Source: Bolinopsis microptera (Eukaryota > Ctenophora > Tentaculata > Lobata > Bolinopsidae). From it: a DNA stretch of 64,000 nucleotides. This document shows, one piece after another, positions 4,281 through 63,636 of this stretch. Position 1 is the first letter of the stretch. Each line of letters starts with the position of its first letter. The notes under the pieces are model-generated. The model was given only the letters and a program-made list of their open reading frames with translations. It was not told where the DNA came from and did no database searches. Where the stretch lies: the NCBI RefSeq assembly GCF_026151205.1, contig NC_087076.1:5694902-5758901 (forward strand), read 5' to 3'. The translations under genes were made by a program, and so were the position numbers.

Positions 4281-4300
4281 TAGATGTGGATACTGGTGGG

Positions 4301-4430
4301 GAGGTGAAACACATTTGTTTACTTTAATAGTAAGCACCTGTTCAGCGGGTTGAGGAGGTGAAACACATTTGTTTACATTTTTAGGGTAAGCACATGTTCA
4401 GCGGGTTGAAGAGATGATACACATTTTGTA
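4301..4430. repeat. Subterminal tandem repeats of the TIR
   Basis: Two and a half copies of a unit of about 55 bp beginning gaggtgaaacacatttgttt and ending gttcagcgggttga. The mirror copies lie at about 20980-21098. Arrays this close to the tip are typical transposase-binding sites; binding is inferred. Confidence 0.65.
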
Positions 4431-5308
4431 TTATAGAAGGCTTGTAACACTTGTAACGCTTTCTTGTTACCCCCCTTTGAGGGCCCCGAATTATTTTCTG
4501 AACGAAAGCTCAAAAATAACCGAGAAATCGACCTTCTTATTAACTCATTTTGATGACTGTTTCTGACCTAAAATTGCACGAAAAATCGATTTAGCTAGGT
4601 TTCAGAACCTATAAACACTTCCTTATCCCTCAAAATTGATGTTTTATAGTTGATACGAGCAACAAGCAACATATGTTTTGATCCTTCGGTTCTACAGCTC
4701 TTGACCTAGGCAGTTAAGCTGAACCCGACAGATCGAGGCAATCCTCACCTTAACTGATCAAACTGGTACTAACACAATTTTCAGATATAAATGTTCTTTG
4801 CGATACGTTTATTGCAGCTTTGCAACTTGAGTGAAGACCAGAGTACGAAAACACACAGCAGGTAAGTAACTCACTTTTGGTGACTGTTCCTCACGAACAT
4901 TCTGATCCTGCAACATATGAACAGCTAGGGAGATCGTCTCCTTAACAAATCGGACAGGTACTATCACAATTTCCAGAGCACAGCATGATAACAAAGTCAA
5001 AAGAAACACAACGAAGGTAGGTTACCAACACCACAATATAACAATTATACTAACAACTGAATTAAATTTATTCTGACGACGGGCAGCCCTGATGTGCTCC
5101 GTCATCCTCAACGAGCGACCACTTGTAATAGAGGTGTTATGTCATGTGACACCGATCCGTCCAATCACAAACAGGACGAGTCAGCAGATCGATATCGTGT
5201 GTTTACTTTCCTTATCTTTATTTGACCCTCTGTTCACATTGTTATCTCTACCACATCTCGGCTCGGCAAGGTCCGCGTGCAATATCTGCACCGCGGTAAA
5301 CACGCCAT

Positions 5309-5355
5309 GATTACGTCATGAACTTGAAATAGTGTGATTGTTGTACTTATATAAC
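5309..5355 (+). promoter_or_regulatory. Inward promoter in left TIR (CRE-like site + TATA)
   Basis: ATTACGTCATG (CRE/ATF-like) at 5309-5320 lies about 25 bp upstream of a TATA box (TTATATAA, 5347-5354) facing into the element. The G run at 5389-5407 follows. The copy in the right TIR faces the resident genes; this left copy would produce antisense transcripts toward the transposase 3' end. Confidence 0.45.
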
Positions 5356-5730
5356 CGTGCCCATTGCCCACGTACAATACAAACTGTTGGGGGGGGGGGG
5401 GGGGGGGTTTAAGATAAACAACCGATCTTGATAGTGTGTTGTTCGCTCCTCCAACTGACTGTGATGCTAACTGTTCAATCAGGAACGGAACATTAACATT
5501 GTTTAGTTATAGCATGTTTCGGTTTAGTTGTCCAATTGCGTATTATTAAAAACATTTACTCTAATATGAGGTCGCGATTGTGAACTGAGTGAGATCCAAA
5601 TGATGAACTGTGCTTTAAGTTTACACCAACTGGAACCAAAGGAATATACCCATGAGTGCTCCCTAACTTAACTTGGACGGTAAGTGTTTGACAATAAAAA
5701 CTAGGACACGAATTCTCTGACAAGAAATGT

Positions 5731-5820
5731 TAGCAGGTTTAAATAAAATATACCTGCAATTAGCATGAGCAGGTTTAAATAAAATATACCTGCAATTAGC
5801 AGGTTTAAATAAAATATACC
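5731..5820. repeat. Minisatellite, unit gcaggtttaaataaaatatacct
   Basis: Three imperfect copies of an AT-rich unit of about 28-35 bp just inside the left TIR. A further copy sits in the middle of the element near 15165-15206 as part of a copied TIR-inner segment. Confidence 0.7.
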
Positions 5821-5884
5821 TCCAACTGACTGTGGTGCTTATCGTCCAGTCAGGAACAGAATAATAACATAATTTTTTATTTAT

Positions 5885-8192
5885 TCAAGTAGCCCTGGTC
5901 ATTTTTAAAAAATCGTTGTCGACCTCCCTTAAAAAAACAGGGTTCAAATTGACCAGTTGGGCACACACGAATGCGATGTCGCTCAGATAAGGCAACATCT
6001 TCGCCACAACTTTGTTTCCCAAAATCTTGTACCGCTTCAGATAGCCAATCGAGCGTTCCACGTGGATGCGGGCGATGCTGACTTTCCTGCTGGCTGCTAC
6101 TTCTTCCGGCGTGAACTGAGTCTTGCCCCACATCCCCGCTGGGATGTTTAGTGTAACTCCTGAAATTTAATTCGCTTTTTATTCCGCTTATTCTTAACTA
6201 ACCGGACGATGATTAATCACTCTACACACAACTAGACTGTTACGTGACGTTTCAACACGTTTTCTAGCTGGCTCTGAAACCTTAACCACCCAGAATGATC
6301 CTAACCCTAACACAAACCCGATTTCTAACTTAAGCGTATGCTGAAACCTTAACGAGAAATTAGAAACCATAGGTCATAGCACGTTATCTCGCAAGAGGAG
6401 CATCATTTGGGTGATTCGCAATCAGCATACAAAATATAAATACTACGATTTAAGTTGGTTTTAACTGTTAGTGTTATAGGGGCCCGTTCAGAAAAATCTC
6501 ATATTTCGAATGTAGCACGGTTGGAACTAACCTTCGGGCAAAATGTCATGAATGAGGAACCCCTTGTCAGCCATCACGTTGTCACCAACAGTCAGCTTCT
6601 GCAGTATGTCACTATCCACTACAATTTCCTTGTCGGTTGTGCCACCAGGGTAACAGCGGCTGACATATGTGATTACCCCACTGGGTGCAATTCCAATCAG
6701 TAACTTAGCTGTGTGCGTAGCTGGAGATGGAACAGAACGATTATGCAGGGGAAATTGTATGAGGTACGATAGCAGAAGATCTGTAATTTACGTTGCAGGT
6801 TCAGCATTATTGAAAGGTATGATCGACTGAACTTACACTTATAATGGCTGTAACATCTGGCGCCCGACTCAATGTTGGACGGAGCTTCAATTTGGACCTG
6901 TGGATTGTAGGAATTTTCAATTGCTACAGCTGCAATAACAAAATGAAATTTTGAACATCACAATTCGCACCCCGCCGTAATTGTACTGCTATAAGAACAC
7001 CAATTCACTGGTCACGTTCAAAGCGAAATATTGCGTCAACTTATCTGCTGTGACTTTCATAATTTTTTCTGAGCTCTAAAGTTGTAGCTGCTCATTCGGT
7101 TCTGGTAATGGACTCAAATCATACCTCGGTACAGTCAATCACTATCCTAGTGTTGGGGTGGGAAGCGAAGCATGCGGGCATGGCTTTCTGGCACTTCGCT
7201 AGTGACGGTAGATTGTCGCCAACCAGGGTCTTGAATTTGTTGACCATGATATCCAGCCAGGACCTCCATATCGATGTTATCTGTGATCTCGATACCTGAA
7301 TTTACCTGCATTTAGCTTCGTTGCAATATACTAGGAAAAAAGTTTTAAAGCCGTCCCTAGAACAGCTGCATCTATTTCTAACTCTTTTTTGAAAATGTGA
7401 GAAGTCAAAAATCAACATTTGAAAGGTCAACTGTTGTTACCCAAACTACCGCTGTTGCTACTAAAAATCTTACCTGAAAATCGACAGCTAAAATATCATC
7501 AGGAAGATTAACTCGCAGTTTCTTCAACGTGATGAGCAGTTGGTCCTCGTACAGGAGGGTCGAATGTTTGTTGCCAGTAACGGCGTAGGTGAGGGAGGTT
7601 TGGGTGCGATAAGACCGGAGGAACTTCAGCAAGGCAAGAAATACCTCTCCATTAGGTAATCCAGTGTATTGGTGAACCTGGGTAAATATTTCATATGCGG
7701 TAACGATTGGGACAACTTTACATAAGATGACGTGAGGAGTAATGATTGTGGACACTTAGTGATTTGTCGAAGTCATGACATTGATTTTAGAATAGTAATG
7801 AAATGTAGGAGTCTGGGATAGTTCTAAAATCGGGTACAACAGTTTGACTCAATTACGATGACAAAGAGCACAAACCATTCGCGCAGAATTCTTTATGGTG
7901 GCGAATCTGATTCCCTCCAGAAGAGAGTTCTTATACCGCTGTTGGTGGGTGTCGCATACTCTCGAGTCACTAGTAATCCATGCCCTGAAAGAGGTTACAG
8001 TTTGAGTTGTGTTCTATATAATGGTATTTATGATGATTGCAGGTGTAACTACAAGGGTCCAAGAATGTACGAATATGAAAACTGTTATGAGCAATCAACT
8101 AACGCGGGGTATGTTAGCTTGACCGATTCAAGGGCTCTTTTTGGTATCCTTCGTCTCCCAAACGTAGTACATCCAGGAATTGAACATTTCAT
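5885..8192 (-). CDS. THAP-like DDE_4 transposase (ISL2EU type)
   Basis: Proposed exons: 8192-8104, 7984-7876, 7677-7474, 7295-7125, 6897-6837, 6708-6532, 6159-5885; the frame is kept throughout, giving about 361 aa. The N-terminus has C-x4-C (MKCSIPGC) and later C-x2-H (VCDTH), the zinc ligands of a THAP-like DNA-binding domain, though the spacing is short. Next comes a helix-turn-helix leader of DDE_4 proteins (EDQLLITLKKLRVNLPDD, then VSRSQITSIWRSWLD). The catalytic triad is intact: D188 in IVIDCTE, D259 in MADKGF and E305 in HVERSIGYLKRYKIL. It should cut and join the TIR ends. The exons carrying the triad are firm. The join from 7876 to 7677 is the weakest; another linker exon could be missing. 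Stop at 5885. Confidence 0.82.
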
Positions 8193-8425
8193 AATCTTGT
8201 TAATGTAAAAGTTAGTATATAAAACTTGCAACAAGTTGACGTAGAAGTGCTGCACGTGCAATGTGCATATAATTAGATCGAGGAGCAGCGGTTCTGTATC
8301 AAAGCTGTTACAATTGATATGACTGGGCAGTTCGGCAAATTTAAAAATTAGTCGGCATCTACACTTTCCTTATTCAGCAAATGTATTCGAATAAAGTTTG
8401 AGACAAGCAATATTATATCATAATG

Positions 8426-10952
8426 TTATTTATATTTACAGCTACTTTCATGTCTGTTTTTTGCATTACTGACATTAAATTCCATACCACAGTGAGTACA
8501 GGAGTACGGTTTTGCTCCTGTGTGAACTCTCATATGCACTGTGAGATTACTGTTTCTAGTAAACCGCTTACCACACACATCACACTTGTGTGCTCTCTCT
8601 CTGGTGTGCATCAGAATATGCTCTTTAAGTGTGTCTGCCCGTACAAACCGTCTCCCACAATACCTACACTTGAACTCATCATCGCCATGTGTTAGCTTGT
8701 GTTTCTTAAGAACATCAGGTTTGTTGAAAGACATAGGACACACATCACATCTGTATTGTAGCAGTGCATGCTCTGAACTGATATGATCATACAGTTCCTG
8801 TTCAGAGGATGTCTTAACACCGCACGCATGATACTGACAATTGTGTGTCTTGTTCGTGTGGTTATGGTAGATGTGAGTAGTGAGGGTATTTTTCTGAACA
8901 GTAGTATAGTCACAATGTGTACACTTGTACTGCTTATCCCCCGTGTGTGTTAGAATATGACGGGTGAGGTGGTGCTGATGATCAGTCCTATATTGGCAGT
9001 AAGGACAGGCGAGTCTCGCTACTTCATCGTGTACTGTTCTAATGTGTCTTGTTAGATCACTCCTCCAACCAAACATGTTCCCGCACGTGTCACACTTGTG
9101 TCCTTTCTCTTTCCCCTTTCTTGATACTCCTTGAGTCGTCCCACATTTGTGTCTCTCCAGCTCTAGCTGCGTCTTAAACAGCTTCAAACAACCGGTTGCA
9201 GTGCAATGATATTGTTGACCTGTATTTAAATAAAGTAAGGAACTATCTAGTAATATCGCACGGCCTCGTGCACAAAGGTATAAAATTGCGATAACTATAT
9301 CAATGATCTGACCATTACCGACTCCTTTTTCCTTCAATGTTACTAGACTCTAGAGATTGTTCTCACCATGTTCTAGATCGTGGTGTACACCGCTACAAGA
9401 AGGTAAGTTGTCATCAGATTCAGGTTTTCTGACACACTCTTTGGTTTGTGGTATGTTACTTTTGTTAGTACTTTCTATGGTATTGTCGCCATCATCATCT
9501 AGAACAATAATTCTATCCCTGTCTTTGAGAACATTCTTCACCTTTTTTTTATACCTGCGAGATAAAAAATTAGCATGTTAGCAATCCTAAAAGTACAGTT
9601 AGCACCACGCGATCAACTACAATTGCGGAACATATGCTGCAAATTATCGGTTAAATGAAGCCATTACAGTATGTTTAAAGAAAACTTTTAATACGAACTA
9701 GGACATCAAAGTATCAAAACTCACTCCTCATGCGTCATGTTATGATAGTTATCATACAACTCAAGTGCTCGATCAAGACAAGTATCTGTTTGATCCTTGT
9801 TTATTCTACCAAACTTAAACCGTTCCTCATCATCGTCAGGTACATCCTTGCTCCTGTCTGATATAAGTTCATTGTAGAGATCAGGGGGCAGCTCAATTCT
9901 CTCGATCTCCTCATCAGAGGACTCTCCGTTCTCCCTGAAAAGTAGTACCCATTGAACATATCATAACACATTGCTAAGTTCAAAATTTAAATAGAATTTG
10001 GACTCTGACAAATATTTATGCAAATAAGGAACACAAGTTAAAGCTCCAAAACATGATTATGGTAAAGTGTTAAGTTATCCAGTAAGATTATATAAGTAGA
10101 CAGTGTTACTAACATGTCCTCCACGAATTTCTCCCAGCCACCAGGATAAGTCTCACAAGTAATTTTATAGAACTCCTCATCCGGCATAAGATAGCCTATG
10201 TCAGCCTCACATATTTCATGTGTTAACTCAGGGTTTTCTGCGATCAGTTTACACACATCTACAGGACCATCTCTGAGATGAGAGGTTAGATTCTTGTTGA
10301 CAAATAGATCTTTTAATGCTGGTACAGACTCAAGTTCTGAGTGTAGGAACATCTCTAGATCTTCTACTTCAGGAGTTTCAGCTTCTTCGTTAACAGAGTA
10401 CTGGTTAACTTTTTGTTCGTCTGTACATTCTGCAAAATCCGATTCACCATTTACATTCTTGTTCCTCGTTTCAGGAGCACTGTCCGTATCACTGTCAGAG
10501 GGGTATCTGGGATCAGCCTTAACAAATTCCTCCAGTTTTATTAATCCATCTTCATACCGATTCAGCAACATCTCATCTGAATTGTGAGCTAATGGTTAAG
10601 ATACCTGAATAAGATTTTTAAAACCTTGCACACTTGCACTCTTTACCACTCACCGACTTCCAGAGAATATTCTTATTGGCTGCGTCAGACACACACATAA
10701 ACACAAACACATTTATTGGGATTATTAGTATAGATTAGACCTACATTGTGAGTAAGCTGTGGTGTGTTCCTCCCATTCTTCAGTCCGGTAACCTTCCAGT
10801 GGTGCATCTACTGTCATCAAACCCAGTTCCACTAACTTATCTCTGTTGTCTCTTATTCTCTTGTATCTTCTGAGACTGTGTTCACACACACCTCCACAGT
10901 ACCTAGTCCCTTCAAACACCTTCCACAGTGACATATGTTCTAAATATAACAA
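8426..10952 (-). CDS. C2H2 zinc-finger protein encoded by the transposon
   Basis: Exons 10952-10745, 10576-10114, 9934-9725, 9554-9367 and 9219-8426 join with consistent phases (1, 2, 2, 1) to about 620 aa. The first exon has a Cys-containing basic segment (TRYCGGVCEHSLRRYKRI), the middle 300 residues are acidic and low in complexity (DSDTDSAPE, GESSDEEIERIELPPD), and the last exon packs about nine zinc fingers with TGxKxY/H-type linkers, for example CDVCGKRFTRNSNLTVHMRVH. The first finger is degenerate and the last is C2HC. It is probably a nuclear DNA-binding protein; whether it recognises the TIR or regulates the element is inference. An AATAAA at 10712-10717 (complement) lies in intron 1 and could permit a short transcript ending at an in-frame stop at 10725. 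The start at 10952 is the first ATG, but a good acceptor overlaps it, so an upstream exon is possible. Confidence 0.75.
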
Positions 10953-11359
10953 ACTTGGTTTAGTTGAACTTTAAAAGATCAGTTAGGAATGAAAGTTAGT
11001 TAATGCAATTTGTGTCTTTTACAATTATAGTGCTATGTGATATCCTCACCAAACGATGTGACCAGTGGCAACTGTACATATATTAGAAATAGCACTCTTC
11101 CTTGTATGTTTTGCGTAAAGCGATTGTGTGCACAGGTAAACTGTGGCCGGGATTACAATATATCAGTTAAAAAGTTGATGTCGTGCAGGCCTCGTTGAAA
11201 TTAGAATGGCACTAAAAGGAATGTGCTCCTCAAGCAGTCGTCGTTTGTACGGAAATTGGTCTGACGTTTGAGACAGCTCTCTCAACCCCCCTCCCCCCAC
11301 CAAATGTTCACAAATTAAAGTATTAAAGTCCGTGGCTGGTGCAGAGTCTGGTGCAAATA

Positions 11360-14300
11360 TTATTCGTCATCGGAGTCCGATACGCATGGCTCTGCAAGAT
11401 CGTGCTCGGCTGAAAGAGGTTTCAATTAGCTGCCTGATATGGGACTAAGTGGTGGTTCAGAGAAACTCTTGTGTAATTTGCATGCACTGCCGTATGGTAC
11501 GGGAACAAATTTAATGTACAGGTCAAAATTAGTGCCGCTCACCTTGCTTGAGGATGTGGGGTATGAATTCATTGAAGTAGAATGTCTGGAGTTGCACAAT
11601 CTTATGAACGTAGGAGTGGTCCTTCTGGACTGTGATGTAGAAATATGGTTTTTTTGGTGTCCAGGGGAAGAAATAGCACACCTTCCTTCCTGAGGACATT
11701 GAGGGACTGTTGAGCAAATATGTGATGTTCTAAATTTTGAGATTTTGCCATGGTGACAAATTATGCATATGGTACCGCGACAATTGACCCCTATGTAATT
11801 ACACTGGGCAATTGTCGCCCACCCCAAATTATTTGCTATTCTAACTCTACAATCTGAAAACCTGAAAATACAAACCAGTAAAATGCAGCTGTCCCTGTAT
11901 CTGGTCATAGTAGGTGTGGTTGGAGTTAAATTCAACCGAATCCGGTCCAGCTCGCAGATACGGCATGCTGGGCACGTTCCTAACCTTCGTTGTCTGAGCC
12001 TGACACTTTCTCACCCATTCGGCCACAGACTTGTCTTTTAGAGAGAAAATACATTTAATCTCTAATGTTCCATCCTGTCCGACTAACCCGTCAGGTGATG
12101 CACCAAGGCAGGAAGTTTCCTTATCCAGAAATATCCCTGTCTCAGTTACCTTACATTGTGCCACAGTTAGGAAAAGTTACTATGAAATAATTCATAAGGT
12201 CATATACCGGTAGAAGCCTAGTATAATATGTTATGAGATGTAGCAGTGATTGTTTGGAAAGTTATGCATGTTTGTGGCACTGTGATAGGTATGCAGTTTC
12301 GCAAACAGTTTACAAGTTACAACCTGTTCTGACCTGCAGACCCGTTAAAGCTACAAACTCCCTTCTAGCCTCGTCCTCGTGAGTAGTGCCCCACTCTAGA
12401 GCAGAGTGACCCTCGAGACGGTCAGCAGCGTAGAACAGGTCAGTCATCCTTTCCTCTCTTGTTTTAACTGGAAATTGGTCATCATGATGTTATATCGGTT
12501 ATTGGGGAAAATTGTGAAGTCGACCACTCTTCATAAGTAATGAAAAGATCCTTGAAAACATTTCACTTATGCACAGCATTGAGAAGATCCTTCATATTTA
12601 CCCTTTTCTGACTTTTTTCCGGGTTTAGATCTACCAGACAGGAGAGTCAGCACCTGATGGAACTTTGTGCTTGTCAGCCTGAACTTTTTCACCGCACAGT
12701 ACAGTATGTTTGAGAACTGGCCTGTAGTGTCCTCTGCCAGCTGTACTATGTCCCCGTCGGGAAGCTGAATCTCACGTAAAGACTCACGTGCACTGTCGAC
12801 CGTTTGCCCTGCACAAATTAGAAATGTTTGGAATACAACAGAATATTCTGTTTGAAGCTGTTTCCTTAAGTGAGTAATTTTAACAATTTACAAATGTACT
12901 CGACATTACACGTTCGGTCTTACATGACTTGATGATTTCATGTATATATTAATTACATGTAGTTCAATATACAAATCACCATACCTTTCTGTAGCAGATT
13001 GTACACAAGTATACGTGCCCACTTGATCAATGGGACAGTTTCGGGCGCCGGCTCCTCTGACAGCACAAGTTTCAATCCAAAGTTAGGGATTATGGAGTCC
13101 ATGTCGTCATAGAATTGTTTACTCCCTCCGGAGAAGTCCGCTACAGCACACTGTTGATCAGAGTTATCATCATTTTCCTCCAATCTCCTGCAAATGTACA
13201 GTAAAAGTCAGGTTGGAGGCCATTTTAGCAGGGTTGTGAAAAACGTAAATGGTAAACTCAAAAAACGTTCAAAACGTGCTTTTTTCTATTTTTTTCAAAA
13301 AACGAGAAAAAAACGAGAAAAAACGTTCGCATAATCTAATCAAGCAGACTTACGTGAAAATTCAAAATGTATCGGTATGACCAATCAAACTTGCCAGTTG
13401 AGTTGACCAGGCATGGCTCCAGCCGATTATTCTTGGGGGTTCAACTTGGTGTGAAGCACCAAGGAGAATCACATACAGCGCCGAAGGCGCTGCGGCAGGG
13501 GTCTGGGGGGCGGAGCCCCCTTTCTGCGGGGGCCTAGGGGGGCGAAGCCCCCGGAAAATTTTGCGTTTTTAGAAGCTAATAACCTTACCAGAAAGTGTTT
13601 GAATTAACTTGAAGAGTTCAATAAAACATAATGTTTTAAATGTAAAAATAAAGGTAAAAATATTTTAATAACAATTAAAACATAATAGACACTGGGACTG
13701 TTCAATTCAACACAACTCTGCGGTTACTCTCAGCAAACTTGTCAATAATGACAGTAATGTCTATAGCTTTGACAAGCTCCTTTTCGTGACTGAGAAGGGT
13801 AAGGTCGCTTGTCACTGAAGACTGCAATCTGCTTATGTGATTGTGGCCCAGGCCTCATGGTGTTCGTACTTCGCTGGTTCGTTTACTGGTAGTCGGTGAC
13901 CGTCAAAACATTGTAAATTTCCGTATAAATCACAGCGTTTTTTAAATAAATACGCAAAAACCTGTTAAAAAAACGTAAAAACGCTCCAATTCAAAAAAAC
14001 GTAAAACACGTATTTCACAACCCTGCATTTTAGATTAGCTGAATTTGCTACGCCTTAAAAAGTATTGTAAATTCACACCGCGATGCATACTCACATCTTC
14101 TTTGCAGAAGGCTGTCGGAGCAAAGCGTCCAGTGTCTGGATCGATTCAAGCTTTTTCTTGGCGGTTTTAGGCTTCTTGAGCCAACTCACTGGAACTAAGT
14201 ATTAAGTCAGCATTAAGGTGAGCATGAACTTTTTTATGACCGTTCTGTGGAACCGTTATTATTAAGATTCATGTCTAGTTGATGAATTATGCAATACCTG

Positions 14301-14971
14301 ATGTTTTCGAGAGATTTTTCGAAGCGTAGATCAAAGTTGCTGCCATGTGTGAACAAGGTGTCGTACCCACTTTGCAGGCACAGTGGTATTTCTGTACAGT
14401 TTTTTCCTTCGTGTTCAACTCCATCTACGGATATGAACATAATTTATTAATTGTAGACTATGAAATAATTTTCCTATTTGGCACAAATCACGTCGACAGC
14501 AATCGCTGAACAAAACTTTCATTGCCAACAAATCACATAGAGGTTAGAACTACTTAAATTGGACATCGTTCAAACTAATCTCTACTTTTCGTGTATCATG
14601 ATGTTACATAAACCTATATATGTGCATGTCGAGTCTTTCAAATGACGGTAAACAGATATTTCAAGTTCACAATTCTGGGTTAAACGAACCGAAAGCTTGT
14701 AAGATTGATCCTTCTGTGAGGACTGGACGACGGCTCTCAGAGTTGCGTCACGGTACTCAAAGAACAGAATTTTGTTACCATCGTACGCCTGAAATTAAAA
14801 TTTTCAGCCACAGTTTACTCTCTACAATATTCACCAAACAGTTATGACCAGGTATGGTTTGGAAACCTTACAGAATAGATCCGAGCAAATAAAAGTAATA
14901 CAAAAAAAGTAACTGCATACCCTCTGTCCCTTCAGAACAACTTTTTTAAGGGATGGACTGAAAAATGTCAT
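11360..14971 (-). CDS. SWIM zinc finger - YqaJ nuclease protein
   Basis: Ten proposed exons: 14971-14921, 14788-14690, 14424-14298, 14188-14095, 13187-12985, 12808-12602, 12467-12334, 12149-11876, 11689-11543, 11409-11360. All phases agree, giving about 461 aa. Residues about 63-76 form a SWIM finger, C-x-C...C-x-H (HCACKVGTTPCSH). A YqaJ/lambda-exonuclease core follows: FRLTSTKFHQVL, ALEWGTTHEDEARREF, then LGASPDG (D325) and LEIKC (E335, K337), with NHTYYDQIQGQL and GRKVCYFFPWTPKK closing the fold. The metal-binding D/E-x-K set is intact. YqaJ proteins are 5'-3' DNA exonuclease/recombinase relatives, and this companion gene is known from ISL2EU elements. It ends in an acidic tail (SDSDDE). 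The N-terminal exon before the SWIM domain is the least certain. A hAT MITE (13229-14025) enlarged one intron without harming the frame. Confidence 0.82.
13229..14025. mobile_element. hAT MITE nested in YqaJ intron, 797 bp
   Basis: Ends CAGGGTTGTGAAA and its complement TTTCACAACCCTG, with a perfect 8-bp target duplication CATTTTAG at 13221-13228 and 14026-14033. That duplication length and the CAGGG tips are hAT hallmarks. The interior is rich in AAAACGT motifs near both ends and has a G+C-rich core (cggagcccccttt, gcgaagcccccgg). No transposase frame, so it is non-autonomous. Confidence 0.9.
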
Positions 14972-14996
14972 GAGGTAGACTGCTGATAGGCTCATA

Positions 14997-15271
14997 CTAA
15001 GAGAGAGAGAGAATTTCAGTGTAAATGAGGGGAACGCGAACGGGTGGGTGTGTTGGGCAATTTGCACCAAAGGAATATACCCATGAGTGCTCCCTAACTT
15101 AACTTGGACGGTAAGTGTTTGACAATAAAAACTAGGACACGAATTCTCTGACAAGAAATGTTAGCAGGTTTAAATAAAATATACCTGCAATTAGCAGGTT
15201 TAAATACTAAGAGAGAGAGAGAATTTTAGTGTAAATGAGGGGAACGGGTGGGTGTGTTGGGCAATTGGCAC
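14997..15271. repeat. Copied TIR-inner segment between direct repeats
   Basis: A segment of about 70 bp starting actaagagagagagaga occurs at 14997-15066 and again at 15207-15271. Between them (about 15066-15206) lies a near-perfect copy of the element's own left TIR-inner region and minisatellite (about 5634-5757). This looks like template-switch or gap-repair filler. Confidence 0.7.
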
Positions 15272-15389
15272 AGGACGTACAAAGAAACATTTCAAAAATA
15301 TTATTTCAACGAAGTTAGCTGACCAGTTGTCTACGAATAGGGAAAACAACTCAGAAGAGTTCTTCTAAAGAACAGTTGTTTTATTTTAT

Positions 15390-15710
15390 ATATTATTATA
15401 ATGTCATCTGCTGGTGGTGAGGATGCCAGAAGAAAGAATACCCAACTATCTTCTGCACTGGATCCCAAAACATGGTAAAAGGTCAAGAGGTAGACCTCGG
15501 AAAAACTGGTTGTCATGTGTCCGGGAGGATGCAGCAATCTTCACAGGTGTCGATAACATCACGATAGAAGATGCAGAACAACAAGCTACAGACGTCAGAC
15601 AGGGTTCACTGGAGAGGTCTAATACACCAGAGAAAGGAGTTACCATGTGGTGCAGGCCACTCCAACGACTAGGAGGAGACCTTTTCAAGTACAAGTAAGT
15701 ACATCTGCTG
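15390..15710 (+). pseudogene. LINE ORF2 C-terminal fragment
   Basis: The plus-strand frame at 15414-15698 contains KRSRGRPRKNWLSCVRED, a signature seen at the C-terminus of many non-LTR reverse transcriptases. No RT domain is present, so this is a 5'-truncated LINE insertion. It ends a dozen bases from the stop of the convergent Ulp1 gene. Confidence 0.6.
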
Positions 15711-15721
15711 TAAGCTAGTCT

Positions 15722-18353
15722 TCAATGCTCTTCAACCTGCTCTTCGATGCGCACTCTGAGATGTGCGCGCAGATTGATAGACGTTTCCAAGTCCATGTTC
15801 ATATCCTGGGTGAAGACTAAATTCAGTTTTACGTGAACCTTCAGCTTAATAAACGTTCCGGGTTTAACTTACATGTGATGGAGAATAGATAGGGGAAAAA
15901 CTTTTGTACAAATGTAGTCCACAGAAACGTACATCAAGGTTGTACCGTAATGTGAATCATTGCAAAACTTACATATGCACACCATACAATTTTATGCGGA
16001 GCACGTATATTTCCGCATTACTCTCTGCCAATGTCAATTTAAAAAAATACCATACCTGCATGAGTCGCTCGGCAAACAGAAGCATGTATACACCGCAGTC
16101 CACTCTGTTTGTCTGTTGGGGGACGGGGATCTTCTGAACCTCCAGCAGTGCTGAATATGTTAACTTTTTAAAACATTTTACGCATACTGTTATTTTCTTC
16201 CAGATACTTCACGGAATATTCACACTGCACCCATTCTACAATATTATATTTACTCCCAGTTGCAGTTACCAAAAATTAAATCATTTTACTAGTCATATTC
16301 TCTTACCATACCGGGCCCTGCTTAAAACATTAAATTTTTAATAATACAAATTTGACTTACGGCCATGTGTGAGCATGCTGAAAGCCCTCCTGAGTCTTGT
16401 GTATGACTGCTGCCCATAAGACGTCAAACTGTCGTAAATCCTCATGGAGGAAGTGGTGATGGCTATCAGGAGCCAATGTCCGGCGTCACAGACTGGGATT
16501 AGCAGGGTGAGCCCACAGAGTAGTGTGTGAGCTACCCTTTGGCACCACGCGTCGTTGTTCACCTGTCAAAAACATATTACAGTACGTATTGCAGGTAAAT
16601 AGCTCTGGTAGAGAACGCCACATTATGTTTTAGTGTGCTAATACAGTGTTTAGTACAGTATATTAATATAGTACGGTACACCCTAGGATTGCACAAATCA
16701 TTGTAAGTGAATGATCAAAATTACCTCTGTCTGCGTTAAATCCTTCATATGCAAGTAAAGGAGTGGCCCCTGCACCGGTACATGGAAGGACTCGGAAGAG
16801 TTCTCATACTGGGCGACCAGGACTTGCAGCCACCCAGAGACGATGACGTCATTGAGCAGCTGCCCCGGACCAAGGGTCAGGAGATCCCCAGACTGCAGCT
16901 CAACCCCGCCTAACAACCGCTTCTCTATCGTAGCAACCTGGATGACATATTTGAATAATGTGATATACAGATTTCCTGAAGAAGATTACACACATACTTT
17001 AATTTAGCAAGTTTTGTGCCATCATTACATTTTACTAAGTACTAAGTTCAGTCTTTCTGTACATATTTCTAAATTTGGATTAGAATACAATGGCGGAGTC
17101 AAACTTACGTTGCTGTCTTCGAAGTCCATATGGTCATCGACCTCTATTCGGATCCTGTCGACAGAAGAGGGCATCTCTTCTATTGTGTCAACCTGAATGT
17201 TTAAATATACCTGACAATCTTTAATTGAACAATGTTTTTTGCACTCATGAACTTAAACAAAGTACTAATAATCCCTGTGCTAAGGGATCACTGCAGCACG
17301 TAATAGAAGGAGAAACTTACCGTTTTGGGGGATCGAGGCGGAGGAGAACTGTGGACTACAATTCCGAAGTCGTACGGGTCCTGCGATTCCTGCGATGACT
17401 GCGGCCTCAACTGAAACGCCCATGTGCAGGTTAACGTCTGGTGCCTGAAACAGTATTCTTGGTGAGTTTTGCTTAGTCGGTTAGACAGTGGATTTCAATG
17501 ATTAAAAATGGTTAATGATTTTATCCAAATTGTTAACATACGTACTAGGAACTCAAATTGTTTTTTAGCTCAGCCCAGTATACGTACCTCACAAGATTGT
17601 AGCTGTTGCTGAAGAGCTCCCAACAGCGAGGACACTTGACCTCTTCCACCCTCATGTGCACTTTCTGAAAATGCTGCTTCAACTGAAAAAGTTAGTGCCT
17701 ATCAGGAGAAGCGTAAACCTGCACCATTATATGAAAATCAACGGCAAAACCGTACTAGTCTTATCGGCCGTTCAACTAATAAAAATAGCTCACCAGGTAC
17801 TGGTTGTCACCCTTGTACTGGCAGCCTTTGTAAGTACATGGAATAGGGTCCTGGTTGCATGGGTAGCTGTTGTGTCGCGATAATGTACTGGAACAGTTGA
17901 ACGACGCTCCGCATTTTCCTGGAAAATATATATGTTGCTGTTTTTACAAAGGAACACAACACGACATGGACAGCAATCTCCAAATTACTAAATTAAGAAC
18001 TAACAGCCTCAATGAATGTGTGTACAGTAAATTTTATTAGATATGCGGCTGAATTGTAACAGGATGTCCGAATTTGAAACGTCGATTCCTGATTCACTCA
18101 GTCCGAGTTGAAAAATCACGAGATCACTTTAAACTGTTGGGAAGGTTACAAAACTTTATAAGGTGTTTTTTCCACTGTTACCAGCATACATGTGCGGCGA
18201 TAAGATGTTCACGGAAAAACAATTGTGACTATGTATTTACCCACCACAATTGAACAAGTTTTTCAATCCGTGCTTTGAAGCCATGTGGTTCTTGTAGCTT
18301 CTGTTTCTGACAAATTGTACAGGGGTCTCGCACGTTACGCACCAAAACGGCAT
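15722..18353 (-). CDS. Zinc-finger / Ulp1-type (C48) cysteine protease
   Basis: Nine exons (18353-18245, 17918-17794, 17682-17588, 17444-17321, 17192-17109, 16937-16725, 16562-16361, 16150-16056, 15805-15722) join in frame to about 376 aa. The first 110 residues hold four fingers: CVTCETPVQF...HMASKH, CGKCGASFNC...HNSYPC, CTYKGC...HFQKVH and CPRCWELF...HQTLTC (two C2H2, two C2HC). An acidic/proline linker follows, then an Ulp1 fold: LLTLGPGQLLNDVIVSGWLQ, H280 in DAGHWLLIAI, D295 in IYDSL, Q331 in VPQQTN and C337 in VDCGVYML. The Q-to-C spacing of six equals that of yeast Ulp1. All catalytic residues are present, so it may process SUMO or a polyprotein-like substrate. Longer reading upstream to 18435 is in a different frame. 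Ulp1 domains occur in other transposons but are not, to my knowledge, standard in ISL2EU. Confidence 0.83.
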
Positions 18354-18399
18354 ATTCAGATTCTAAGACTAAGAGGAAATTAAATTCACGTCGATCTAT

Positions 18400-19320
18400 G
18401 CACAGATAATTTTTAGGCACGGACACAGTAATCATGGTAGCATGGATTCAAACAGACAAGCAGTGTTATTTGCAGTAGCACCAGTTAACGATAGAGTACG
18501 TTTTCAGTTTGCGGGCCTGAATGTAAAGGACCGTCAATGTGGCCAAAAATACGATACGAATACATGTACGGTACCAGCTAAAATATTTGCCAGTTACATT
18601 CAGTACAAGTAGAATTTTCATTCCATTTAATTTTAGGGAAGGGGAAGTTAAACAAGTAAATAAAATTTACCACTATTAACGGTTGAAAATATATATTGAA
18701 CACGAAGCAGCACTACATCTGCAAAAAAGGGAACGAAGGTAAATTTAAACTAGCGTCTAAGACATGGCTTTGGCTACACAAGCAGTAAAGACGAAAGCAT
18801 ATGCAGAATGTTAGTAACACTAGCATCATAACACCAATAGTTAGATTTGTAGTTGCACCAAGCTCTACAGGTGATAATGTTTGCAATATATAGTAACAAA
18901 GTATCTGCATGCAGGATTTTAAATAGAAATTTTAATAGCGTACAGAAAAGCTCTAACCCATGATCCGAAATAAAATGCAGCTGGTAAACGAACTAAAGAG
19001 GGGTCCACTGAACGAACCGGACGCGGATCACGCACGTTACGTGCACAGTTAATTTTTAAGCACGGACACAGTAAATCATATATGGTAGCATGGATTCAAA
19101 CAGACAAACAGTGTTATTTGCAGTAGCACCAGTTAACGATGGAGTACGTTTTCAGTTTGCGGGTCTATATGTAAAGGACCGTCAATGTGGCCAAAAATAC
19201 GATACGAATATGTACGGTACCAGCTAAAATATCTGCCAGTTACATTCAGTACAAGTATATTTCGAATAGAAATTTTAATAGCGTACAGCAAAGCTCTAAC
19301 CCATGATCCGAAACCACTGA
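18400..19320. repeat. Imperfect duplication flanking the protease 5' end
   Basis: About 18400-18615 recurs at 19045-19260, and about 18920-18965 recurs at 19262-19312. The second copy lacks the roughly 300 bp between these blocks, or the first copy gained it. The duplicated block holds the region just upstream of the protease start. Confidence 0.65.
18442..18612 (+). CDS. Small ORF, 56 aa, duplicated
   Basis: ATG at 18442, stop at 18610-18612. It starts MDSNRQAVLFAVAPVND and contains VRFQFAGLNVKDRQCGQ. The duplicate at 19092 keeps the first 41 codons with few changes and then shifts frame after a 2-bp deletion. No known domain. It runs divergently from the protease gene, so it may be chance coding on a promoter region. 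Confidence 0.2.
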   Translation: MDSNRQAVLFAVAPVNDRVRFQFAGLNVKDRQCGQKYDTNTCTVPAKIFASYIQYK

Positions 19321-19389
19321 ACCATTTCAACAGCGCACCTATTACCCGTTATCTATTTTATCAATACTTGAACTTCCGTGTTATCTCAT

Positions 19390-19654
19390 CTAAAATAAAC
19401 ACCCCGCACACAAAATGAATTCCATTGACTTTGAGGGCAAGTGCTGCATTTAAAATTACACAAACTCTTATTACAATTGTGAAAAGGATTCCAAGTTTAC
19501 ATATTTAAAACGGCAATGACTAATTACACAGCACAAATTGAAATTTTGAGTGTCTAACCTGGTAAAAATGAACTGCACCATGGTGAACTAGTACTTCAAC
19601 TCTGTCAGGTATAACCATGCTTGTCCTCCTGTATACTGCCTCCTCCTGGAACAT
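19390..19654 (-). CDS. Small two-exon ORF next to right TIR
   Basis: Exons 19654-19559 and 19443-19390 give 49 aa, beginning MFQEEAVYRRTSMVIPDRVE. Donor CAG|GTTAGA and acceptor AAATGCAG fit, with phase 0 at the join. It is the first gene-like segment downstream of the right TIR promoter (TATA near 20040). Unrecognised; it may be a 5' exon of a longer transcript rather than a protein. Confidence 0.25.
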
Positions 19655-19746
19655 ACAGTTCTTGTCAGTGAAGTTGTGTCCTAGATTCTGTTTTTAAACA
19701 CTTACTGTCAAAGTTAAGCAAAGCAGCACTCATGGATATATGCATT

Positions 19747-21110
19747 ATTCCTTTGGTTCCAGTTGGTGTAAACTTAAAGCACAGTTCATCATTTGGATCT
19801 CACTCAGTTCACAATCGCGACCTCATATTAGAGTAAATGTTTTTAATAATACGCAATTGGACAACTAAACCGAAACATGCTATAACTAAACAATGTTAAT
19901 GTTCCGTTCCTGATTGAACAGTTAGCATCACAGTCAGTTGGAGGAGCGACCAACACACTATCAAGATCGGTTGTTTATCTTAAACCCCCCCCCCCCCCCC
20001 CCCCAACAGTTTGTATTGTACGTGGGCAATGGGCACGGTTATATAAGTACAACAATCACACTATTTCAAGTTCATGACGTAATCATGGCGTGTTTACCGC
20101 GGTGCAGATATTGCACGCGGACCTTGCCGAGCCGAGATGTGGTAGAGATAACAATGTGAACAGAGGGTCAAATAAAGATAAGGAAAGTAAACACACGATA
20201 TCGATCTGCTGACTCGTCCTGTTTGTGATTGGACGGATCGGTGTCACATGACATAACACCTCTATTACAAGTGGTCGCTCGTTGAGGATGACGGAGCACA
20301 TCAGGGCTGCCCGTCGTCAGAATAAATTTAATTCAGTTGTTAGTATAATTGTTATATTGTGGTGTTGGTAACCTACCTTCGTTGTGTTTCTTTTGACTTT
20401 GTTATCATGCTGTGCTCTGGAAATTGTGATAGTACCTGTCCGATTTGTTAAGGAGACGATCTCCCTAGCTGTTCATATGTTGCAGGATCAGAATGTTCGT
20501 GAGGAACAGTCACCAAAAGTGAGTTACTTACCTGCTGTGTGTTTTCGTACTCTGGTCTTCACTCAAGTTGCAAAGCTGCAATAAACGTATCGCAAAGAAC
20601 ATTTATATCTGAAAATTGTGTTAGTACCAGTTTGATCAGTTAAGGTGAGGATTGCCTCGATCTGTCGGGTTCAGCTTAACTGCCTAGGTCAAGAGCTGTA
20701 GAACCGAAGGATCAAAACATATGTTGCTTGTTGCTCGTATCAACTATAAAACATCAATTTTGAGGGATAAGGAAGTGTTTATAGGTTCTGAAACCTAGCT
20801 AAATCGATTTTTCGTGCAATTTTAGGTCAGAAACAGTCATCAAAATGAGTTAATAAGAAGGTCGATTTCTCGGTTATTTTTGAGCTTTCGTTCAGAAAAT
20901 AATTCGGGGCCTTCAAAGGGGGGTAACAAGAAAGCGTTACAAGTGTTACAAGCCTTCTATAATACAAAATGTGTATCATCTCTTCAACCCGCTGAACATG
21001 TGCTTACCCTAAAAATGTAAACAAATGTGTTTCACCTCCTCAACCCGCTGAACAGGTGCTTACTATTAAAGTAAACAAATGTGTTTCACCTCCCCACCAG
21101 TATCCACATC
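19747..21110. repeat. Right TIR of giant element
   Basis: Inverted copy of 4283-5645, nearly identical along its whole length, including a 20-bp C run (19985-20004) matching the 19-bp G run of the left arm. Similarity decays inward to about 19665. Confidence 0.9.
20039..20083 (-). promoter_or_regulatory. Inward promoter in right TIR
   Basis: On the minus strand a CRE-like ATTACGTCATG (20073-20083) precedes a TATA box (20039-20046 complement). It points into the element in the direction of all four resident genes, so it is the best candidate promoter for the rightmost gene. Activity is inferred from motif order only. Confidence 0.5.
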
Positions 21111-21268
21111 TATTATAATACTCGATAAAATTCAATAAAAGTCAATGATTACAAGTTCCAGTGATAAATCATTCTAAAATAACAGACAATCAAGACGGAC
21201 GATAATATTGTTGATATATGTATTAGGGCTTGTAGTACGAGTACAACATGAACAGTTGAAAATTTGGA

Positions 21269-24122: not shown

Positions 24123-27100
24123 CTTTTGTAATTTGGATGCATGTTGTCGACGAATCTATTTTGTGACTGTAAACAGCTGACTCCGTGCATTTAGCAGTGG
24201 TATTTGATTCTGAATCAAGTCTGTATCCTACATCACAGAATATCGTGACTGAAACTCCTGCGGGGACTTCACCACCCGGACTTAGAAATCCATGTTCCAC
24301 TGAGAGTGGAGGACAATACACTGAAAGTGAAATTTAAAAATGTTAGAGTATGAGTTTTAAGCACTTGAAGGAATCAAATAATCGGCATGTTTTGACCAGG
24401 TATTTGACAAACATTGCAAACTGGAGGTACCAAAAGTGACAAAAAGAACTCCCAAACTTAACCCATGGATTACAGACAGTATCATCCAGTCTGTAGAAAG
24501 AAAGCATGAACTGCGTAAGGAGTGGTCTGACACCGTTACTAATAAGAACCCTGGTGGTAATATCTTGCTCTACCAAGTATTTAGTGATTATCGTAGGATG
24601 CTTAAAGCTATCATTAAAGCTGCCAAACGTTGGCATTACTGTAACGAAATCCTAAACAACTGTGAAAATAGCAAGAAAACCTGGCAAATTATTAACGAAC
24701 TCAGGGGCAAAAAGAAGAGGCAAACCAAGCCCCCATTTATCATTGACAACCAAAGAATAGTTGATAGAAGAGCTATTGCTAATGGATTCAATACTTGGTT
24801 TGTCTCTATTGCACCAAAGCTGAATGAGACACTGAATAATCTATCTTATGGTCTGCCTATATTACCCATGAAAACTTTCTATGACTTCCTGAACCCAAGA
24901 AATGAAAAAATATTAGGCTAGAAGATTGCTCCTTGAACGAAATATTGAAAATCATAAGCGAGTTCGAAAATGGTAAAGCCAGTGACATTCCCATAAGTGT
25001 AGTAAAAAAGTCATCTCATGTAATTGCACCTGTATTATCGAATTACTTCAATATCCTTATGACCAAAGGTATATTTCCAGATGTCCTGAAGACTGGTAAA
25101 ATAACTCCTGTATATAAGAAAGGTAACCCAGAAGAAATCGAGAACTACCGTCCTATCTCCACACTGTCCGTCTTCGGTAAGATCTTTGAAAAGCTCATAT
25201 ATTCTAGAATATACGGATTTGTTAGCTCCCAGGGAGTTATATCGAAGACACAGTTTGGATTTAGGAAATCTCACTCAACATCTCATGCAGTCAATTACTC
25301 TGTAAATTTGATTACGAAATCTCTTAAACTTAAGAATCATGTTTTAGGAATATTCATTGACCTAAGCAAAGCTTTTGACACTATCGACCATTCAACACTT
25401 CTTATAAAATTAGAGGGATGTGGAGTGAGAGGAGTTGCAAATAACCTCATCAAAAGCTACTTGACAAACAGGCAACAATACACCGAAGTTGTAGGAGAAA
25501 AATCAGATACCCTATCTATCCAATTTGGTGTCCCACAGGGTTCAATTCTTGGACCTCTCCTATTTCTTCTTTATATGAACGACATCACAAACAGTTCTAA
25601 ACTAGGATCATTTGTTACCTTTGCTGATGATACCAATATATTTGTTGTCGGCAAAACAAAACGTGAGGCATATGAACGAGGAAATGAGCTTTTGTCATCA
25701 TTGAAGTCTTATATGAGAGCGAATAAGTTACATATAAACATGTCCAAGTGCTGCTACATACACTTCAAACCCACCATGGCAGGTTCTAAGTCAGAGACTT
25801 TATCACACCCTGAAGTTGCATTAACTATAGACAACTTTCCAATCAAAAAGGTTTCATCCGCAAAATTTCTGGGTGTTATAATTGACGAGAACCTATCATG
25901 GGATGATCACATCAAAGCACTTAAGCGAACTCTAAATCATTCCACATCCACTTTATGTAGACTTCGCTGCTCCCTTCCAGAATTTCTACACCAACAATTA
26001 TATTATACCCTGTTCGAATCACATCTTTCCTACTGTATATCTGTATGGGGTGGGGCAGCGAAACAACGTATAAGCTCATTATTTACTGCTCAGAAGTACT
26101 GTCTCAGAGTACTATTTGGTGACAGGCTGGCGTACCTTGATAAGTTCAAGACTTGTGCACGTACTAGGCCCATAGGACACCAGAAACTTGACCAAAATTT
26201 TTCATAAAAGAGCACACCAAACCGATATTTAAGCATAATAATATTCTATCTATACAAAATCTCTATACATACCACAGTTACCTCGAGCTCTACAAGATAA
26301 TGAAATTCCGTGCTCCAATATCCCTACATGAGGGTTACACATGTTCCTCAAGGAAACCCTGTCTTCTAATCTCTCAGGCAGACCCACCTGACAATCACAA
26401 CACTAGATCAACCAAAATTTTTAACATTTTAACCCCAAAGTTCAGAATGACTGACTTTACTACTAGTGTAATGTGCTTGCGAGGTAAGTTAAAACGTGCG
26501 CTATTAGCTAATCAACATAATCACGCCCTGCTTGATTGGACCGTCAAAGATTTTGACTGCACAAATGTTATTGTCCAAACATAACTGGCTGGTCACACAC
26601 ATCTCAATTAAAATTACGCTAGGCCACTGTTTTCCAAGTCTTGTCCTGTGAGTAAAGTATGTGTGAGAAAGTTTTAATAAAATCATTGTATATTTATTTT
26701 TGAATTTAAAAAATCTAATTTGAGAATGAAGGTTAAAGAAATTTTTAATTAGCACTGTATAGTTTAAGATATTTATAGCTTATTATAACAATTGATACAA
26801 AGGCCATAATCTTTCACCAGCTCTCCAATATCCACCTTGAAGCTGCATTTTATATCCTAAATATAAACTAAATCATGTTTTAGTGTAGACTTTTTGTCAC
26901 AACAAGACTGCAACCTATAGTAACAATTATAAACAGAACCTCTAATGTCTGCTAACAATTTTTCTTCTAGTCCTAATCTGAGCCTTGTCTCTAAAAACTT
27001 AACTGAACTAGCGTTTCGGTGTGTGCAAAAGCTTCCAGGCACGCGCATTCCTTGCCCCGTTAGTTACCTGTCCTTCATAAACCAAACTAGCAGTCAGGAC

Positions 27101-52467: not shown

Positions 52468-52485
52468 GGGGGGGGGTGGGGGGGT

Positions 52486-52569
<84 letters not shown>

Positions 52570-52671
52570 GGGGGGGGGGGGGGGGGGGGGGGGGTGGGGG
52601 GGGGTGGGGGGGGGGGGGGGGGGGGGGGAGGGGGGGGGGGGGGGGGGGAGGGGGGGGGGGGGGGGGGGTGG
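52468..52671. repeat. Interrupted poly-G tract, about 200 bp
   Basis: Almost pure G on the plus strand with sparse T or A. Open frames through it (poly-Gly, poly-Pro) are artefacts. Strong G-quadruplex potential, and a likely site of length error in assembly. Confidence 0.9.
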
Positions 52672-57455: not shown

Positions 57456-58087
57456 ATATAAGTAAAGTGCAAGAAACCGAATTCGAACTTGATACATTAA
57501 TAGCATGGGAGACGATATTATACATGGGCGATATTTAGTAGAGAATAAACCGGTACCTACGGTGTACCGGTACTGGTATACCTACGGGGTGATATTAGTA
57601 CAATTTGGTTAGAACACCTCCTCCCGTATTATTGAGAATAAATTTACTTTTCCATACAATTGTGCACTTCAGTCGTATAGTAAACCGGCAGTAAAGCATG
57701 AAATGCTTTAATGATAAAAGATTCGTTTGTTATATAATAATGCTTTTTTTGAGTCGAGAAATACAAAATATAATGTTAACAAAACACAACTTTAAAGAAC
57801 GATCAAAATTCTTACTAAGTTTTATTATAAAACTCTGTGACTGTTAAAAAGTATTAGGTAAATGATTCTTTTAATTCTGCCTTGATGGTCTGTAGCTTTT
57901 TCTCCTGTTTCCCATTTTGAGGAAGTCAACCCTCTTGTTAGAAATTGTGGCTGTGCAGTTATAGAGTGTCGACGGGTCTGAGAACTCCAACGAATGAGGC
58001 ATGATATCTTCTTTTACAGTCTTTTCAAAAACTTGTTAACATTCTGAGTTATATTATTGTCATAACAACGAATAGAATTTAATTTTA
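57456..58087. other. Non-coding DNA before satellite
   Basis: AT-rich; contains a local ggtaccta(c/t)ggtg-type repetition near 57550-57590. No gene recognised. Confidence 0.4.
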
Positions 58088-61000: not shown

Positions 61001-62340
61001 TAGTTGTCACGAGATGTTTGATCTAGTTATTAGAGTTGAGCTATTCCTAATCTTTGCTATGACAGTATTAAAACTACATTAGTTGTCACGAGATGTTTGA
61101 TCTAGTTATTAGAGTTGAGCTATTCCTAGTCCTTGTTATGACAGTATTAAACTACAATAGTTTGTCACGAGATGTTTGATCTAGATATTAGAGTTGAGCA
61201 ATTCCTAGTCCTTGTTATGACAGTATTAAAACTACAATAGTTGTCACGAGATGTTTGATCTAGTTATTAGAGTTGAGCTATTCCTAGTCCTTGCTATGAC
61301 AGTATTAAAACTACAATAGTTGTCACGAGATGTTTGATCTAGTTATTAGAGTTGAGCTATTCCTAGTCCTTGCTATGACAGTATTAAAACTACAATAGTT
61401 GTCACGAGATGTTTGATCTAGATATTAGAGTTGAGCAATTCCTAGTCCTTGTTATGACAGTATTAAAACTACAATAGTTGTCACGAGATGTTTGATCTAG
61501 TTATTAGAGTTGAGGCTATTCCTAGTCCTTGCTATGACAGTATTAAAACTACAATAGTTGTCACGAGATGTTTGATCTAGTTATTAGAGTTGAGCTATTC
61601 CTAGTCCTTGCTATGACAGTATTAAAACTACAATAGTTGTCACGAGATGTTTGATCTAGTGGCTAGAGTTGAGCTATTCCTAGTTCTTGCTATGACAGTA
61701 TTAAAACTACATTAGTTGTCACGAGATGTTTGATCTAGTTATTAGAGTTGAGCTATTCCTAGTCCTTGTTATGACAGTATTAAAACTACAATAGTTGTCA
61801 CGAGATGTTTGATCTAGATATTAGAGTTGAGCAATTCCTAGTCCTTGTTATGACAGTATTAAAACTACAATAGTTGTCACGAGATGTTTGATCTAGTTAT
61901 TAGAGTTGAGCTATTCCTAGTCCTTGCTATGACAGTATTAAAACTACAATAGTTTGTCACGAGATGTTTAATCTAGTTATTAGAGTTGAGCTATTCCTAG
62001 TCCTTGCTATGACAGTATTAAAACTACAATAGTTGTCACGAGATGTTTGATCTAGATATTAGAGTTGAGCAATTCCTAGTCCTTGTTATGACAGTATTAA
62101 AACTACAATAGTTGTCACGAGATGTTTGATCTAGTTATTAGAGTTGAGCTATTCCTAGTCCTTGCTATGACAGTATTAAAACTACAATAGTTGTCACGAG
62201 ATGTTTGATCTAGTTATTAGAGTTGAGCTATTCCTAGTCCTTGCTATGACAGTATTAAAACTACAATAGTTGTCACGAGATGTTTGATCTAGTGGCTAGA
62301 GTTGAGCTATTCCTAGTTCTTGCTATGACAGTATTAAAAC
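58088..62340. repeat. 79-bp satellite array, about 54 monomers
   Basis: Monomer includes gagttgagctattcctagtc, atgacagtattaaaactaca and ttgtcacgagatgtttgatc. Variant junctions (agtggctag, agttattag, agatattag, ttactattaaag, caaattattag) recur in a fixed order; the block with ttactattaaag appears near 59110, 59830 and 60470, implying a higher-order unit of eight to nine monomers. No coding function. Confidence 0.95.
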
Positions 62341-62420
62341 TAGGAATAGCTCAACTCTAATAACAACTAATAACAATCAAACATCTCGTGACAACTAATG
62401 TAGTTTTAATACTGTCATAT
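62338..62420. repeat. Inversion junction: one monomer in reverse
   Basis: At 62338 the array flips: ctaggaatagctcaactcta is the complement of the preceding monomer. The reversed unit runs to about 62420, with a small duplication of aactaataac. Confidence 0.85.
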
Positions 62421-63573: not shown

Positions 63574-63628
<55 letters not shown>

Positions 63629-63636
63629 TGGCCTTA
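62421..63636. other. Core with repeated GAGGTTAACCTC palindrome and poly-C
   Basis: About ten occurrences of the 12-bp palindrome GAGGTTAACCTC or half of it, at roughly 62438, 62765, 62812, 62911, 62953, 63139, 63281, 63399, 63412 and 63451. A run of 52 C occupies 63575-63626. No coding frame. The core is bounded on both sides by inverted satellite monomers. Confidence 0.8.

Follow-up and report, generated by a model that had tools for sequence, protein, structure and literature searches.

A locus on contig C5 of the ctenophore Bolinopsis microptera raises the question how a cut-and-paste transposon came to span 16.8 kb and to carry two genes beyond a transposase and a nuclease. The stretch that was analysed (C5:5694902-5758901, 64,000 nucleotides; in the following "the window", C-numbers denoting contigs) contains this transposon at positions 4283-21110, with 16,828 bp between the tips of its terminal inverted repeats (TIRs). 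An initial annotation, made from the letters of the window, had described it as a giant, recently active element of the ISL2EU type with four apparently intact genes. The genome that was searched comprises 264.65 Mb in 232 contigs; in the available part of its description, the published assembly of the species has 13 chromosome-scale scaffolds (PMC10232365). The results point with good confidence to a giant, recently active ISL2EU-like cut-and-paste family that captured a host PRDM9-like gene. The functions proposed for the additional two genes have chances that are no better than about even.

Anatomy, copies and selection of the element

The inverted repeats, which had been annotated as nearly identical, turned out to be identical over 1.36 kb. 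Two pairs of arms (4280-5410/19983-21113 and 5389-5646/19746-20003), each 100% complementary, overlap at a G-tract, and with gaps allowed the match comprises 1456 columns at 98.2%. The TIR tip reads GATGTGGATACT, the element starting with GATG. The left flank ends in GACTATA and the right flank begins with TATTATAA, which fits a 2-bp TA duplication, or an AT duplication if the element ends in A..T. The annotated 2-bp duplication was also met elsewhere: TA was present on both sides in all 16 flank pairs examined (13 of the 14 head-to-head TIR pairs described below plus the copies on C1, C3 and C7, the C2 pair being left out), and no equal 3 bp were found. Because nearly all flanks read ATA..TAT, a TA duplication with GATG ends and an AT duplication with AGATG ends are indistinguishable. 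Two genome searches with queries made by joining the two flanks of the C1 or the C4 copy matched those flanks alone, and no empty insertion site was found. The C1 insertion (C1:8303707-8318992) has on either side about 20 bp that match as reverse complements, and it thus occupies the middle of a near-palindrome.

A genome search with the TIR tip gave 501 first-look candidates, of which 40 were scored, so that the copy number is a lower bound. Among the 40 scored matches, 28 make up 14 head-to-head pairs that are 2.8-16.8 kb apart and are mostly short derivatives. A DNA query with the gene for the YqaJ nuclease was matched over its full length at four loci (C5, C4 and C12 at 100%, C1 at 96%), and three fragments of 72-82% identity were found on C9. 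The C4, C12 and C1 copies are bounded by TIRs with TA pairs at their flanks, and measure 14,664, 15,533 and 15,286 bp between the tips, so that the giant size is a property of all four copies. Exons of the transposase, YqaJ, protease and C2H2 genes are present in each of the four, and the protease and the C2H2 gene are therefore shared by the other three YqaJ-bearing copies. The C4 copy is devoid of the window stretch 13187-15728 and hence of the first three YqaJ exons. Because it is present in the C5, C4, C12 and C1 copies, the four-gene set is common to two subfamilies. Smaller elements retain parts of it: the 5.4-kb C3 element has kept the C2H2 gene minus its first exon and none of the other three genes, and the 5.7-kb C7 element has kept the transposase and the finger exon. 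In the aligned coding exons the window and C4 copies differ by one substitution in the transposase, none in YqaJ, one in the C2H2 gene and five in the protease, in agreement with the annotated recent activity.

All four predicted genes lie on the minus strand; the annotation had placed them on one strand. Between the window and the C1 copy, zero stops were found in the aligned codons of all four genes, and the ratio of nonsynonymous to synonymous substitution rates (dN/dS) was 0.25 for the transposase (295 codons), 0.21 for YqaJ (428 codons), 0.21 for the protease (345 codons) and 0.45 for the C2H2 gene (621 codons). Chi-square tests on sites yielded p=5e-4, 5e-6, 1e-14 and 9e-5, respectively. 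As judged from these comparisons, the four predicted genes are under purifying selection. The description "apparently intact" holds for the modelled exons; start codons, the N-terminal splice of the transposase and expression lie outside it.

The transposase core is encoded by five exons (7677-7474, 7295-7125, 6897-6837, 6720-6532 and 6159-5885) with GT-AG borders at all four introns and 299 stop-free amino acids, which match DDE_Tnp_4 (E=2e-39) and HTH_Tnp_4 (E=3.5e-12). A total of 659 relatives were found at E<=0.001; among the best 120 of them, identities are about 35-54% and the sources are fish, hagfish, insects, a spider, amphioxus, corals, a sponge and metagenomes. An alignment and a tree were built from the query and 42 homologues hand-picked from these 120, with no Harbinger reference included; the catalytic residues D, D and E are present in 43, 43 and 42 of the 43 sequences. 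A combination of THAP, HTH_Tnp_4 and DDE_4, or a part of this set with THAP, was found in 31 of the best 120 of 659 relatives. Upstream of the core lies a candidate THAP-like exon pair with a tentative splice, and changes in its first exon between the subfamilies are mostly synonymous by eye; a Pfam scan of the candidate N-terminal exons gave no THAP match at E<=5. The YqaJ gene matches PF09588 (E=1.5e-15) and lambda exonuclease (E about 1e-7). It had been annotated as a SWIM-YqaJ nuclease, of which the YqaJ part stands; a SWIM-like CxC..CxH motif in the exon at about 14424-14299, preceding the YqaJ domain, was recognized by eye, and the Pfam scan of the gene reported no SWIM domain.

With its DDE_4 transposase with HTH, its YqaJ gene, a 2-bp A/T duplication (TA or AT) and an animal host the element resembles ISL2EU, a member of the PHIS superfamily (Han et al. 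2015, PMC4482050), as described in the available part of that paper. There a range rather than a strict definition is given for size and ends, with an average length of about 4.8 kb and TIRs of 6-259 bp that usually start with GG; a THAP domain in the transposase and an AT duplication at A|AT|T targets are further features of the group (PMC4482050). The present copies differ from it with lengths of 14.7-16.8 kb, TIRs of 1.36 kb, GATG ends and two further genes. The coding set thus agrees with the annotation, and the element is best described as ISL2EU-like, with a DDE_4 domain, an HTH and a YqaJ gene, beyond the published length and TIR range. PIF/Harbinger elements, in contrast, have a second gene of the Myb/SANT type and a 3-bp TWA duplication. 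A Harbinger element with a Myb/SANT gene was rejected: the second gene is YqaJ, no Myb/SANT match was obtained by Pfam in the element frames scanned, and the flanks fit 2 bp.

Kinship of the C2H2 gene with a host PRDM9-like family

The C2H2 gene consists of exons at about 10943-10746, 10577-10114, 9934-9725, 9554-9367 and 9219-8429, the last of which encodes eight zinc fingers by motif count. Its aligned codons are stop-free in six copies, namely those on C5, C4, C12 and C1, the C3 element (four of five exons) and the C7 element (finger exon only). Relatives of this gene were found in the host genome in clusters on C10, C13 and C5 and at further loci. Their exons are placed as in the element, with additional linker and PR/SET exons between exon 4 and the finger exon. 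The annotated host protein P0121 (999 aa) is PRDM9-like and has a PR/SET domain, for which the best match among solved structures was PRDM9 (E=2.6e-14); neither KRAB nor SSXRD was reported by a Pfam scan of this protein. Residues 1-375 and 729-997 of P0121 align with the element gene. Residues 371-735, which comprise the linker and PR/SET, matched all three fetched host clusters, and the best match in any element copy had E=4.8. For the C3 element, the gene model of NCBI (P0122, named "zinc finger protein 771-like") agrees with the present one, in that the fingers follow the N-terminal part with no PR/SET in between. In an unrooted tree the host and element sequences form two separate clades, and the synonymous divergence (dS) between them is about 0.32-0.37 in exons 2-4. 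The C8 copies were rejected as a root of this tree, since they belong to the host clade and are broken.

The host genes form clusters at C10:348001-376500, C13:14485001-14494500 and C5:22429001-22438500 (L024-L028), with PR/SET exons and hypervariable finger contacts. Seven copies on these three contigs are 97-99% alike in exons 2-4, and all 17 fetched finger exons are stop-free. After removal of two duplicates and two outliers (the C3 and C2 loci), 13 host genes remained for an analysis of the fingers, among them L054 with a shorter match and six fingers. The ratio of nonsynonymous to synonymous differences per site (pN/pS) was 1.44 at the DNA-contact codons versus 0.28 elsewhere in the exon. 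At the contact codons pN was 0.361; sets of codons drawn at random averaged 0.082, and none of 5000 draws came up to 0.361. Each finger has 9-13 distinct contact tetrads, apart from finger 4 with only three. PRDM9 fingers are reportedly fast-evolving in other animals. These PRDM9-like multigene clusters with hypervariable contacts are a finding in their own right for a ctenophore. The likeness to PRDM9 lies in the PR/SET domain of the host relatives, which matches PRDM9 best among solved structures, and in the hypervariable contact residues; a difference is that the variation described here is between members of a multigene family. A further difference concerns the element protein, which does not have the combination of PR/SET and C2H2 array that its host paralogue P0121 has. 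In the fingers of the element the pN/pS was 0.49 at contact codons versus 0.46 at the others.

New in the present analysis is the finding that the predicted C2H2 gene of this ISL2EU-like element is PRDM9-like and devoid of PR/SET. In the accessible parts of the literature on ISL2EU, on YqaJ and transposons, on Bolinopsis microptera, and on ctenophores and PRDM9 no such element was found, which does not establish its absence from print.

Origin and possible roles of the additional genes

The protease gene begins with a C2H2 match (at cut-off), followed by Peptidase_C48 (PF02902, E=2e-09). Like SENP/Ulp1 proteases it has a C48 domain with the residues H (GHW), D (IYDS), Q (PQQTN) and C (VDCGVY), recognized by eye, including the cysteine motif DCGVY; the N-terminal C2H2 fingers set it apart from them. 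It matched SENP7 with E=4e-05 over two short stretches, neither of which is significant singly, and SENP5 with E=0.0013 at residues 18-164. In a large protein search, none of 1561 candidates was a relative outside the element at E<=0.01. The annotated recruitment of two genes is probable for the zinc-finger gene, which is related to the host family, and was not substantiated for the protease. Further matches of the protease query lie on C12 (at 12.717-12.745 Mb and at 12.99 Mb) in a cluster that has decayed: it consists of exons 6-8 only, has stops and has transposase fragments inserted between exons. This cluster looks derived from the element rather than being its source. In the corresponding regions C12:12714001-12752000 and C12:12988001-12997500 (L019-L023), exons 6-8 are arranged in tandem, and several units share the junction at which transposase pieces of 93-96% identity are inserted.

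Between the window and the C1 copy the protease gene is a mosaic, with a dS of 1.42 and a dN/dS of 0.11 for the finger exons 1-3 and a dS of 0.061 for exons 6-8. A higher divergence than in the body of the element is also seen in its outer regions, both TIRs among them. It thus seems that the finger module and the element ends were exchanged jointly between subfamilies. Such an exchange would fit a recognition of the TIRs by the protease fingers, and it would also fit a plain linkage of the fingers to the right end. In the window at 17440-21110, the protease finger exons and TIRs are anciently diverged from the C1 copy, the remainder being 91-99% alike.

The following model accommodates these observations. 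The DDE transposase would act at the TIR ends and insert the element at A/T-rich TA sites, and the YqaJ exonuclease may process DNA ends in excision or repair. A host PRDM9-like gene would have been taken up by the element with a loss of the linker and methyltransferase exons, and what was kept, the N-terminal part and the eight fingers, may bind specific sequences, serving the element either by mimicking the PRDM9-like proteins of the host as a decoy or by binding DNA on its behalf. The zinc-finger SUMO protease would act on element chromatin and perhaps lift SUMO-dependent silencing. It is tempting to speculate, but rather doubtful, that both additional genes form a two-part anti-silencing module, in which a SET-less PRDM9-like decoy competes with the diversifying host family and a SUMO protease, addressed by its fingers to the element ends, strips SUMO-dependent silencing. 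If this module were real, ctenophores and their transposons would be engaged in an arms race over PRDM9-type zinc fingers, and a transposon would have stolen the weapon. If the capture reading is right, a small cut-and-paste transposon type can grow into a four-gene element of 15-17 kb, one of whose genes stems from a family of host genes that have PRDM9-like PR/SET domains and rapidly changing DNA-contact residues, and the SUMO protease gene beside it would be a second candidate for defeating host silencing. A fast-evolving PRDM9-type finger family and its targets, together with interference by a SET-less transposon copy, would then be testable in ctenophores, which are frequently placed as sister to other animals.

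Ulp1 genes are carried by KDZ elements. As far as the available text goes, TET/JBP genes were captured by fungal transposons, including Harbinger-related ones (PMC12730594). The present element resembles both in having a chromatin-related gene within a cut-and-paste transposon, and differs from these cases, as far as described there, by the joint presence of SET-less PRDM9-like and C2H2-Ulp1 genes in an ISL2EU-like element.

Several alternatives were weighed. An origin of the long inverted repeat as an assembly artefact was ruled out and is scarcely credible: perfect 1.36-kb repeats with a G-tract are indeed hard to assemble, but the copies on C4, C12 and C1 have the same four genes, similar TIRs, and their own flanks with TA pairs. 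A growth "toward virus-like complexity", as proposed in the initial annotation, was rejected, since no polymerase or capsid match was found by Pfam in 20 scanned frames of the 51 stop-to-stop frames of >=70 aa in the element; one frame overlapping the YqaJ gene gave a sub-threshold LEF-9 match (E=0.047). For the PRDM9-like gene, a derivation of the host clusters from the transposon gene would agree with the separate clades and with the recent spread of the family that the near-identity of its seven copies suggests. It is nevertheless very unlikely, because PR/SET lies between the shared parts in the host genes, as is usual for PRDM genes, and occurs in no element copy, and because a TIR match is absent from the fetched host clusters L024-L028. 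Probably, the element captured a host PRDM9-like gene and then dropped the methyltransferase. Some observations weigh against this capture and its consequences. The direction from host to element is inferred from the missing PR/SET alone, the clades being separate and the tree unrooted; the pN/pS values are averages over pairs instead of a formal site test and ignore gene conversion between paralogues; some members of the host family are broken, i.e., both C8 copies have stops and a C5 finger exon is in pieces; and contact residues of the element changed at 7 of 32 positions versus 25 of 233 elsewhere (Fisher p=0.08), which is no clear excess. This argues against a decoy arms race, which might predict such an excess.

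The captured gene could also be a functionless passenger, a piece of host DNA that the transposon picked up along the way, in line with its having the highest dN/dS of the four genes and with the loss of its catalytic domain. This is improbable in view of the six copies with stop-free aligned codons, the significant depletion of nonsynonymous change, and the 5.4-kb C3 element, in which this gene was retained alone of the four. By analogy with the Myb/SANT protein of Harbinger, the C2H2 protein might be a transposition helper that binds the 56-bp subterminal units and has no anti-host role. Such a role is possible, though less likely than not: the TIRs contain these units in tandem, and contact codons that evolve no faster than the others agree with the element itself as the target, but just two genes are given for ISL2EU elements in the accessible part of PMC4482050. 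According to the part of PMC9179366 consulted, activity has been shown for no published ISL2EU element. The C2H2 protein may thus be either a decoy of the PRDM9-like proteins of the host or a DNA-binding helper.

Features and neighbouring sequences

Table 1. Coordinates of the element's features in the window.
Feature	Positions	Strand	Remarks
Left target-site duplication copy	4281..4282		TA, or AT one base earlier
Left TIR	4283..5646		contains 56-bp tandem units at 4300-4426
Transposase core	5885..7677	-	HTH_Tnp_4 and DDE_Tnp_4; D/D/E present
Candidate THAP-like (C2CH) exon pair for the transposase N-terminus	7850..8192	-	in 5/5 copies covering it
SET-less PRDM9-like C2H2 gene	8429..10943	-	five exons
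YqaJ (lambda-exonuclease-like) gene	11532..14788	-	eight exons modelled, boundaries approximate
YqaJ-intron stretch without counterpart in the C12 and C1 copies	13229..14025		copy comparison
C2H2-Ulp1/SENP-like protease gene	16056..18359	-	eight exons modelled, boundaries approximate
Right TIR	19746..21110		inverted-repeat match
Right target-site duplication copy	21111..21112		flank comparison

An Rfam scan of the window gave no match. Long homopolymer runs occur in the window at 52468-52668 (G, 201 bases) and 63575-63626 (C, 52 bases), and the element TIR likewise has a G tract. A reverse transcriptase frame of 433 aa is located at 24906-26207 on the plus strand (RVT_1, E=1.3e-37). At 58085-62342 a satellite with about 54 copies of 79-bp units was found, and a second block of the same period is present at 63634-64000.

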